DNA of 32,297 nt, taken from the NCBI GenBank assembly GCA_020350445.1, contig CP070717.1, positions 4,585,667-4,617,963 on the forward strand, written 5' to 3'. Within the stretch, counting starts at the first letter, position 1; every line of letters starts with the position of its first letter. The notes under the pieces are model-generated. The model did no database searches. It was not told where the DNA came from and saw only the letters and a list, made by a program, of their open reading frames with translations. This document shows positions 20,647 to 23,624 of the stretch, one piece after another. The position numbers and the translations under genes are program-made. Source of the DNA: Acidobacteriota bacterium. Lineage in GTDB: Bacteria > Acidobacteriota > UBA6911 > RPQK01 > JAPXNP01.

Positions 20647-20676
20647 TTGACAGGTAACGACCGAAAGCGCGATAAT
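20647..20676 (+). promoter_or_regulatory. Near-consensus sigma70 promoter of the small RNA candidate
   Basis: A perfect -35 box TTGACA (20647-20652) and a five-of-six -10 box GATAAT (20671-20676) are separated by 18 bases. Transcription would begin near 20683. It is the best sigma70-like match I found in the window. Confidence 0.7.
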
Positions 20677-20682
20677 TCCAAT

Positions 20683-20764
20683 CAGCCGATCACCATAAGG
20701 CCGAGAGATTTGTCCTCCTGTTTAATTGATCTCTCGGCCGCCCTTTTTTAAGGGCTTTTTTTTT
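20683..20764 (+). ncRNA. Candidate small RNA of about 80 nt with an anti-Shine-Dalgarno loop
   Basis: Starting about seven bases after the -10 box, the transcript would have a short 5' tail, then a perfect 11-bp stem (GGCCGAGAGAT 20699-20709 with ATCTCTCGGCC 20729-20739) closing a 19-base loop. The loop carries TCCTCCT at 20713-20719, complementary to Shine-Dalgarno sequences. A second stem, GCCCTT with AAGGGC (20740-20745 and 20750-20755) around a TTTT loop, follows without a gap and is trailed by nine T. No open reading frame of note lies inside. Promoter, structured body and terminator in about 120 bases are the classic layout of a trans-acting bacterial small RNA. The alternative is a 5' leader whose terminator attenuates the lipoprotein gene starting 66 bases further on. 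I recognise no Rfam family. Confidence 0.6.
20740..20764 (+). terminator. Intrinsic terminator after the anti-SD hairpin
   Basis: A 6-bp stem (GCCCTT/AAGGGC) with a four-T loop is followed by nine T (20756-20764). No protein gene on the plus strand lies upstream for it to terminate; the only plus-strand promoter nearby is that at 20647. Confidence 0.75.
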
Positions 20765-20829
20765 GCCCTCCTGAACTTCAATCGATCCCATGGTAATCTC
20801 TGCTTCTTAAATTGGGAGAGGATTGTTCT

Positions 20830-22071
20830 ATGCGCAAAATCTTGGTCTTGGGATGGGGTCTCTTACTGGGCTGTCAGTCTGCACCGCAACCGGTCGCAGA
20901 TTACATTTTGGAGGTCGATTCAGGGAGGTTCGATAGGGTCGACGCGGTCGTCTCCGTTGAATTCGAAGGCATCTCCGGTCCGGTCCATCTATTTGAAGTG
21001 ACCCAGGGCTTGCGTCGGCCAACCCCTGTTCAGATTGAGGTGGGGACGCCGAATCGGCTCTACTTCGTATTGACCGATGAAACCCCCAGGGAGACAGTCC
21101 GGCGGTTTGAGCTGTTTGTCGGGGGCGAGAACAGCGATAAGAGTTCAAGCAAGTTGTCGATGCTCAATGAGGAAGGCAAGTATCTCGAGCTTCGTCTTTC
21201 CGATGCCCCCGTCCTGAGGTACAACTACGGAACAGTCGAACCGCCTGATCCATCCACTCCGAAAATACAAGCCCGAAATGCCTACATCCATCCGGTTTGG
21301 ACTCCTCGTGGAATTGTCGTAACGGATGATTTCAATCCAGATCATTTGCACCAGAGAGGGATCTGGAATGCCTGGGTGAAGACAGAGTTTGAAGGCCGGC
21401 ATCCCGATTTCTGGAATCTGGGAGATGGAACGGGTACGGTCCGGTTCGAAGCCTTTGATGCCCAGGAGGTGGGACCGGTCTTTTCTCGACTGAAGATCCG
21501 GCACCGTCATGTCGATCTTTCGGCCCCGGAAGGGGAGAAGGCTGTCCTATCCGAGATCTGGACTCTCCGTCTATATTCCGTTGGCGGGAAGTTCAGGGGG
21601 TTTTACCTGATGGATCTCGAGTCGGTACAGACCGTGGTCGCTGACAGTCCATTAACGCTGAGTGAGTACCATTATGGAGGGATGGCCTTTCGGGGTGCCC
21701 GGGAATGGACGCCTGACGTGGCCTGGTTTCTGACCTCGGAGGGCAAGGAGCGAATCGAGGGAGATGATTCCCGGGCGGACTGGATTATCATCGGTGGGGC
21801 TTCGGAGGAAGCAGCTCAGGGGACGGCCATTCTCAGTGACCCTGAGAATCTGAGAAGTCCTCAGCCCCTGCGGATTCATCCTGAAATGCCCTACACGGCC
21901 TTCTCGCCGGTGCGGTTGGGGAAGATTGAACTTGAGCCGGGAGATCGCATCGAATCACGTTACCGGTACATCTTCTTTGATGGGAAACCAGGAATCTCCG
22001 AGGTGAGTCCCTATTGGTCTGATTTCGTGGAGCCACCTGTTGTGACGATCACTCCCAACACGGTGAATTAG
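20830..22071 (+). CDS. DUF6807 (PmoA-like) lipoprotein
   Basis: A 413-residue protein of the DUF6807/PmoA group, often found beside Gfo/Idh/MocA oxidoreductases in sugar loci. The segment YIHPVWTPRGIVVTDDFNPDHLHQRGIWNAWV contains the conserved His-rich part (HLHQRGIW here, HHRG in many relatives), and the C-terminal half is beta-rich. The open frame begins at 20812, but ATG 20830 is chosen: GGGAGAGG lies eight bases before it, and the protein then starts with a clean lipoprotein signal with LLLGC as lipobox (Cys15). It should be a periplasmic or outer-membrane lipoprotein. The exact reaction is not known for the group. It is convergent with the SSS symporter gene, and the two stop codons overlap. 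Confidence 0.82.
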   Translation: MRKILVLGWGLLLGCQSAPQPVADYILEVDSGRFDRVDAVVSVEFEGISGPVHLFEVTQGLRRPTPVQIEVGTPNRLYFVLTDETPRETVRRFELFVGGENSDKSSSKLSMLNEEGKYLELRLSDAPVLRYNYGTVEPPDPSTPKIQARNAYIHPVWTPRGIVVTDDFNPDHLHQRGIWNAWVKTEFEGRHPDFWNLGDGTGTVRFEAFDAQEVGPVFSRLKIRHRHVDLSAPEGEKAVLSEIWTLRLYSVGGKFRGFYLMDLESVQTVVADSPLTLSEYHYGGMAFRGAREWTPDVAWFLTSEGKERIEGDDSRADWIIIGGASEEAAQGTAILSDPENLRSPQPLRIHPEMPYTAFSPVRLGKIELEPGDRIESRYRYIFFDGKPGISEVSPYWSDFVEPPVVTITPNTVN

Positions 22072-23624
22072 GCGAGGCCGGTCTCGCTGGATCTCGCTTC
22101 GCTACTCTCCCGCGTCGGAAAAGCCTGGTAGGCCAGCAGGCCAAGAAGGGCTGAACTCAGTGCCGGCGGGAGCAGGATCCCGTAGGGTTCAAGTAGCGGT
22201 TCGAGGAAGGCTTCCCAGCTGAACACGAAATGGAGCCCCCAGCTCGCGCAGCCGACAATCATGCTGGCCATCGCCGATCCCTGCCCTTTAGAAGCACTGT
22301 AGATTCCCAAGGTCAGAGGCACAAGGAGACCGACCAGGGTCAGTGCATAGGCCTCTTCGAGCAGGCTGTACGCGTTGTGACCCAGGAAGGCGGTAACCAC
22401 GCTGGCCGCACTGACCCCGACGATGGAAATGCGGGTCAGAAAAAGCGTTGAATAGCGTCTTCGCAAGAGTTGGGGCAGGATATTCTGGCCGAGAACACTT
22501 GCGGGAGCGAGGATTGCACTGTCGATTGTTGAAAGAACGGCGGCACTCAGTGCCAGGATGAACAGGATGCTCATCCCTGGGGTCAGGAAGGCCCGGGCAA
22601 GCAGGGGGAGAATCGCCTGATCGGTTGCCTCGGGGAACAGGATCCTGGAGACCAGCCCCAGGATGACCGGTATAAGTCCAAAGACGATGTAGCAGATCCC
22701 GGCAATCCAGCAGGCCTGCCGTGCCACGGTGGCGGACTTCGCCGCGAAGATTCGCTGCGTCAAGTCCTGTGTGGGGACATTCCCCAGGGCCGCGATGCAG
22801 AAGACTCCGAACCAGTCCAGCAGGGAGGTCCACCGATCGGTCGGGATAAAGGTCAGGAACCCCGGTGTAGTTTCCGTCAGCAGCGCATTCCATCCAGCCA
22901 GCAGACTTCCGTCTCCGATGTTGACCAGTGCCGAGAAACCGAGAATCACAATCCCGACGAGTAGAATCGCAATCTGGACCGCGTCGGTCAGGGTGACTGA
23001 CCACATGCCGCCCAACAGGGTATATCCAGTACCCACAACCGCAATGACCACCACTCCGTAGTGAAGAGGAAGCCCGAAGATCAACTCGAGCATGGCGGCC
23101 AGTGCCAGAAACTGAACAGCGATCCAGCCAAAATAGCTGGGAACCAGGATACATGCCGAGGTCATTTCGGCACTGGAACCGAACCGCCTGCCGAAGAAGT
23201 CGGAGAGAGTCAACAACTTCATCTTCCATAGCGGGGCGGCAAAGAAGAAACCAGCGATGAGAAGGCAGAAACCCGACCCCAGGGGTTCCAGCGCCGTCGC
23301 ACTCAGTCCGACACGACGGACCTCGTCGGTCGCGGTCAACATCGTTCCCGCTCCGAACCACGTCGCCAGCAGAGTTGAAGCGGAAAGCATCAGAGGTAGT
23401 CGTCGTCCGGCCACCAGAAAATCGACTTCGTCGTGGATGCGACGCCGGGACCAAAATGCCAGGCCATACATGACCGAGACGAATGCCACCAATGCCAAGC
23501 CGAGTCTAAATTCCAAGTTGGTATCCGTGAGGTTAACAGTTCCTCTTCGCAGGAGCCGGCCCCTCGGTCCGATCCGGGTACCTTGACCCGCCTGCACCAA
23601 AAAAACCAGTTGCCGATTTTGCAC
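22068..23624 (-). CDS. Sodium:solute symporter (SSS/SLC5 family)
   Basis: A membrane protein of up to 518 residues with about thirteen hydrophobic segments. Typical SSS features are FLVAGRRLPLMLSASTLLATWFGAGTM in helices 1-2, GGMWSVTLTDAVQIAILLVGIVIL (the sodium:solute symporter signature near the middle), and ILALSAAVLSTIDSAILAPASVLGQNI, which carries sodium-site Ser/Thr residues. It would import a sugar, polyol or organic acid with sodium. The start is unsettled. GTG 23624 gives an N-terminus of about 35 unlikely residues with no ribosome site; the real start may be near residues 25-37 (CTG 23552 after GAGGGG, or TTG 23516). It lies beside the DUF6807 lipoprotein, so import of the substrate of that locus is plausible. 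Confidence 0.85.
   Translation of the reverse strand: MQNRQLVFLVQAGQGTRIGPRGRLLRRGTVNLTDTNLEFRLGLALVAFVSVMYGLAFWSRRRIHDEVDFLVAGRRLPLMLSASTLLATWFGAGTMLTATDEVRRVGLSATALEPLGSGFCLLIAGFFFAAPLWKMKLLTLSDFFGRRFGSSAEMTSACILVPSYFGWIAVQFLALAAMLELIFGLPLHYGVVVIAVVGTGYTLLGGMWSVTLTDAVQIAILLVGIVILGFSALVNIGDGSLLAGWNALLTETTPGFLTFIPTDRWTSLLDWFGVFCIAALGNVPTQDLTQRIFAAKSATVARQACWIAGICYIVFGLIPVILGLVSRILFPEATDQAILPLLARAFLTPGMSILFILALSAAVLSTIDSAILAPASVLGQNILPQLLRRRYSTLFLTRISIVGVSAASVVTAFLGHNAYSLLEEAYALTLVGLLVPLTLGIYSASKGQGSAMASMIVGCASWGLHFVFSWEAFLEPLLEPYGILLPPALSSALLGLLAYQAFPTRESSEARSSETGLA

Follow-up and report, generated by a model that had tools for sequence, protein, structure and literature searches.

A conserved element in an Acidobacteriota genome is very probably a small RNA gene and not a mere pattern, judging from comparison of its copies. 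It lies in a stretch of 32,297 nt (Acidobacteriota bacterium, GCA_020350445.1, CP070717.1:4,585,667-4,617,963, forward strand), hereafter the window. The interpretation we favour, and which we hold to be probable, is that of a free-standing, trans-acting small RNA (sRNA) with its own sigma-70 promoter and terminator, which would block ribosome binding sites; its transcription, Hfq dependence, targets and repressive action we infer from sequence. An RNA of about 81 nt would be transcribed from this promoter, ended by the intrinsic terminator, and would present two conserved unpaired segments, one being its 5' end (AGCCGAUCACCA) and the other the loop of the hairpin (UUUGUCCUCCUGUUUAAU). The loop would pair in trans with a subset of mRNAs at their strong Shine-Dalgarno sequences (target consensus ACAGGAGGA), and this pairing would block 30S binding. 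The 5' box would add a second contact, and Hfq would probably assist.

A DNA search and a covariance model (R1) identified four copies of the element in three genomes of one family, and R1 was built from these four. Two are in the genome of the window (G000, 5.13 Mb), namely the window copy and a paralogue at a second locus (Table 1), and one is in each of two sister-genus genomes of the same family (G001 and G002). The G001 and G002 copies, which are identical over the RNA, score about 90 bits each with R1. All four share a common layout: AGCCGATCACCA, 2-4 nt, GGCCGRGAG, a loop with TCCTCCTGT, then CTCTCGGCC and a short YCCT.

Table 1. Position, strand and support of the predicted RNA, its parts and its paralogue (window coordinates unless a contig is named).
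Feature	Position	Strand	Support
sigma-70-type promoter, TTGACA - 18 nt - GATAAT	20647..20676	+	sequence; -35 box in 4/4 copies
predicted small RNA gene, about 81 nt	20684..20764	+	model R1 score 92.3 bits
invariant unpaired 5' box AGCCGATCACCA, predicted start A20684	20684..20695	+	identical 12/12 in four copies
hairpin 1, stem GGCCGAGAGAT / ATCTCTCGGCC, loop 17-19 nt	20699..20739	+	sequence, fold, four-copy alignment
loop core TCCTCCTGT, anti-Shine-Dalgarno	20713..20721	+	invariant in 4/4 copies
intrinsic terminator, GCCCTT-TTTT-AAGGGC + nine T	20740..20764	+	window copy only
paralogue	G000:C1:4265157-4265223	-	model R1 82.8 bits

Conservation across genomes, and not the loop 9-mer, is what takes the element beyond chance. 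In about 8 kb of DNA shared by G001 and G002, no exact run exceeds 64 nt, and the run of that length is the RNA; the intergenic DNA that flanks it has diverged, and the neighbouring oxidoreductases are 94% identical. Between the window and G001, the RNA (85% identity over 68 nt) is the sole intergenic stretch that aligns, with 71% identity for the oxidoreductase and 53% for Sir2. The loop 9-mer by itself is unremarkable (0.42 expected per window). In 1.27 Mb of G000, TCCTCCT occurs in about 1% of strong hairpins (loop 9-24 nt; n=198), and none of these 198 carries it beyond the two copies of the element. At G000:C1:2001940-2002070 (L241:1975-2065), units of about 21 nt that contain the palindrome TGGACGTCCA (TGGACGTCCACCCCACCTCCC) are repeated in tandem and make strong hairpins.

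The stem itself has changed in a compensated manner. An A-U pair has become G-C in both G001 and G002, a clear compensation, and a U-A pair has become C-G in the G000 paralogue, so that 2 of the 12 stem pairs are altered on both sides and 91.7% of pair cells are paired over the four sequences. The two innermost pairs are broken in G001 and G002. As many doubly changed pairs were obtained in 126 of 500 shuffles, and four sequences give weak covariation statistics. The sequence-only reading of this DNA had proposed a candidate small RNA, not described before, whose loop exposes an anti-Shine-Dalgarno sequence, and had named compensatory stem changes around a constant loop as support for it. The homologues agree with the proposal, as they keep the 5' end, stem and loop while their flanks diverge, and the changes in the stem speak in its favour, with just two of 12 pairs in only four sequences.

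R1 detected no further member in the remaining genomes of the order or class, nor outside the one family among 396 sampled genomes of the phylum. One borderline match in the phylum was rejected as it sits in a protein-coding frame, and weak matches in G006, G008, G009, G010, G016 and G377 were taken as chance; where frames were checked, these lay in open frames (G009 excepted) or consisted only of the box and an unrelated short hairpin. A loose DNA pattern run on the genome collection gave more than 100 matches, which were chance-like apart from that on G002 contig JAUWTT010000158.1. No copy was found in the viral contigs searched, and Sir2 loci in other families of the order had no comparable upstream hairpin.

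The predicted promoter, listed in the sequence-only reading as TTGACA, an 18-base spacer and GATAAT, is present exactly as stated there, with TTGACA at 20647-20652 and GATAAT at 20671-20676 in a direct read of the window. It matches the consensus at 11 of 12 positions and is the sole TTGACA-N17-19-NATAAT within the 32 kb; none of 100 shuffles had any. A general promoter scanner applied to a 5.5-kb region returned 2 sites against 1.7 expected, which is no excess. The -35 box reads TTGACA in three copies and TTGAGA in the G000 paralogue and, in the alignment, is separated from the first A of AGCC by 37 nt in the window, 35 nt in G001, 35 nt in G002 and 36 nt in the paralogue. This spacing to the invariant box places the predicted transcript start at the beginning of that box, and the 5' end of the RNA is thus probably A20684, seven bases past the -10 box. 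The earlier estimate of an RNA of about 80 nt starting near 20683 is retained for its length and corrected to A20684 for its start. The -10 boxes of the G001 and G002 copies are poor, and a scan of the G001 locus found no promoter.

Folding of the window RNA (-31.1 kcal/mol, z = -5.5; equally stable shuffles, 0/200) pairs the left arm of hairpin 1 (20699-20709) perfectly with its right arm (20729-20739). The 11-bp stem claimed earlier, with TCCTCCT in its loop, is right to the base, and the fold adds a U-G for 12 pairs. The TCCTCCT (20713-20719) is unpaired in this loop, which is conserved as UCCUCCUGU, and in predicted folds of the copies the loop core falls in the loop, not in the stem. Also borne out were the second hairpin (20740-20755) with its nine T (20756-20764), the recurrence of CCTCCTG at 20767-20773, past the terminator, and the lack of any plausible protein gene covering the element. 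A comparable terminator hairpin was looked for downstream of the other three copies and was absent. The 12-nt 5' end takes part in no pairing in the fold of the window RNA, and its exact sequence occurs only twice in G000, at the two RNA loci. It is likely to be a second seed or a protein-binding site.

To what extent could the loop find targets? ACAGGAGGA, the complement of the loop UCCUCCUGU, is an extended Shine-Dalgarno sequence. The 3' end of the G001 16S rRNA is canonical (GGCTGGATCACCTCCTTTCT) and has CCTCCT in common with the loop core. In G000 the only 16S rRNA match (G000:C1:738413-738935; L220/L261) ends at model position 546 and adjoins 100 consecutive N, which mark a scaffold gap. 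Over about 790 long ORFs of G000, AGGAG and related motifs are most frequent 6-15 nt ahead of the ATG and mark a minority of genes, so an anti-Shine-Dalgarno RNA would act on a subset. Pairing with start regions is better by about 2 sd, on average, for the loop and for the 5' box than for shuffled versions of each. This advantage is unspecific, in the case of the loop being expected of any anti-Shine-Dalgarno sequence, and counts as weak evidence. Strict ACAGGAGGA-ATG sites precede a DUF3604-like gene, a Gfo/Idh oxidoreductase (both names read off translations) and a few others, and no target of this strict pattern was common to G000, G001 and G002. The predicted targets include a DUF3604-like protein at G000:C1:2391229, an oxidoreductase at 2995545 and a small secreted protein at 2079450.

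The genes next to the RNA, put forward in the sequence-only reading as possible targets, fared poorly: among 750 start regions ranked by loop pairing, the DUF6807 lipoprotein site came 219th and the oxidoreductase site 545th. The DUF6807 leader had given a duplex of -34.6 kcal/mol, a value that ignores RNA self-structure, and was rejected as a target when it failed in this ranking. Also set aside was ACAGGAGGACAAA (G000:C1:4198835), which complements the loop perfectly over 13 nt and seems to lie within a coding frame. No perfect complement of the 5' box was found elsewhere in G000. The genome encodes an Hfq-related protein (38.9 bits to Pfam Hfq_1), with relatives in G001 and G002, and the nine terminal U of the window RNA suit Hfq binding. 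The corresponding gene (G000:C1:2507539-2507694(-), L281, also L282 and L283) has long extra N- and C-terminal parts and scores higher with Hfq_1 (38.9 bits) than with the Pfam model Hfq (30 bits).

The gene neighbourhood bears on whether the RNA acts in trans or in cis. In the window its left neighbour is a Gfo/Idh/MocA oxidoreductase gene on the opposite strand, transcribed away from it, and its right neighbour is the DUF6807 lipoprotein gene on the same strand. In G001 and G002, it is flanked by the oxidoreductase and Sir2 genes, which diverge from each other. In the window, a DUF6807 gene and a sodium:solute symporter gene (20830-23624) separate the RNA from Sir2, and both are absent there in G001 and G002; this segment may have been inserted in one lineage or lost from the other. 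The oxidoreductase-side copy is syntenic across two genera, and the paralogue stands alone between an esterase gene, about 300 nt away, and an unrelated gene. On the other strand, the oxidoreductase leader is about 95% identical between G001 (L181:1690-1780) and G002 over some 80 nt, is more conserved than the remaining intergenic DNA, and is possibly a regulatory leader.

The arrangement in G001 and G002 may leave room for a leader role, in which the hairpin would belong to the 5' UTR of the downstream gene and act by attenuation or by sequestering that gene's own ribosome site. The controlled gene would be Sir2 in G001 and G002 and, ancestrally, in the window lineage too. Such a role would fit the Sir2 ATG lying about 25 nt past the hairpin on the same strand in both genomes, with no strong terminator in between, and it would fit the window, where hairpin, terminator and DUF6807 gene follow one another on one strand. 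We nevertheless consider it unlikely. The downstream gene differs by locus (DUF6807, Sir2, esterase) while box, stem and loop stay constant, which favours trans action. Furthermore, the Sir2 leader lacks a purine-rich site that the loop could sequester, the DUF6807 site ranks too low for loop pairing to suggest its sequestration, and a conserved alternative antiterminator pairing is absent.

The remaining explanations dispense with specific mRNA targets or with a function of the RNA. The GAUCACC of the box and the CCUCCU of the loop copy both halves of the 16S tail GGAUCACCUCCUUU, so that the RNA might mimic the ribosome, as a decoy for a tail-binding factor or a general Shine-Dalgarno competitor. 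Both invariant unpaired segments indeed match the G001 tail over 6-7 nt, and the 5' box lacks a perfect-complement target in G000. Yet these matches are short, the stem splits their order, and the flanks (AGCC...A; U...GU) are equally invariant and unlike the tail, which makes mimicry quite improbable; that a lineage-specific RNA with both tail halves tunes general Shine-Dalgarno use or binds a tail factor is, if anything, a shade less probable. A plain terminator with a chance promoter between two genes, the RNA being functionless, would account for hairpins and T-runs that end transcription, and such single elements are expected by chance. Terminators, however, neither hold their loop and an upstream box of 12 nt invariant from one genus to another nor duplicate together with such parts, and a perfect 64-nt run in diverged DNA needs another cause. 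Nothing upstream on the RNA strand is there to terminate either, because transcription of the left neighbour leads away from the element, and we regard this explanation as highly improbable. Two copies at unrelated G000 loci could also point to a small mobile or repeated DNA element such as a palindromic repeat. This is hardly credible for an element with just two copies in 5.1 Mb, a syntenic position in two genera, and a conserved unit with a directional 5' box and promoter spacing.

Comparison with known RNAs places the predicted trans-acting sRNA, by mechanism, with sRNAs that have an anti-Shine-Dalgarno loop; by descent, as far as sequence tells, it belongs to none of the described families that were tested. 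We know of no counterpart to its two unpaired segments, above all to the invariant 5' end AGCCGAUCACCA. Searches of Rfam at curated thresholds and with cmscan (4227 families, E up to 10) returned only a match of the terminator to suhB; this match (suhB / mmgR, RF00519) was rejected, as it reached 14.1 bits against a gathering cut-off of 41 and involved the terminator alone. NfeR1 / alpha-r14 of Sinorhizobium and other Alphaproteobacteria is likewise a short trans sRNA whose hairpin-exposed anti-Shine-Dalgarno motif occludes ribosome binding sites; for NfeR1, loop blocking of ribosome binding is supported experimentally and Hfq independence has been described (PMC10746234). alpha-r14 has three hairpins, each with CCUCCUCCC, an ultraconserved motif on stems of varying sequence. 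In contrast, the present RNA has one anti-Shine-Dalgarno hairpin with UCCUCCUGU, no CCUCCUCCC, a stem conserved in sequence and not in structure alone, an invariant 12-nt unpaired 5' box and no Rfam match of its own. AbcR1/AbcR2 of Alphaproteobacteria (named in PMC10746234) are similarly paired anti-Shine-Dalgarno sRNAs, directed at transport and metabolism mRNAs, but they differ in sequence and architecture, and no homology was detected.

The C-rich hairpin loops of actinobacterial 6C / B11 RNAs pair with G-rich 5' regions of mRNAs, and repression by B11 of M. abscessus depends on them (PMC10470900). These RNAs have two C-tract loops, whereas the present one has a single mixed UCCUCCU loop and a second hairpin with a UUUU loop, and cmscan at E up to 10 gave no 6C match. 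LhrC and other UCCC-motif sRNAs of Gram-positive bacteria are also multicopy, with CU-rich loops that block the Shine-Dalgarno region; for LhrC, this blocking of ribosome binding is supported experimentally, and its UCCC-bearing sites, in two loops and a linker, are redundant (PMC4132741). LhrC has three redundant CUCCC sites and five copies, as against one UCCUCC loop and two copies here, in a different sequence and phylum, and UCCC is absent from loop and linker of the present RNA. An open-access literature search in a limited collection found no paper linking Acidobacteria, sRNAs and anti-Shine-Dalgarno motifs.

Collectively, the element is a well-bounded and testable RNA gene. If our interpretation is true, a two-seed sRNA with an anti-Shine-Dalgarno loop would extend to Acidobacteriota a solution otherwise seen separately in Alphaproteobacteria, Actinobacteria and Firmicutes. 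This suggests that the Shine-Dalgarno site has come to serve as an RNA target by convergence.
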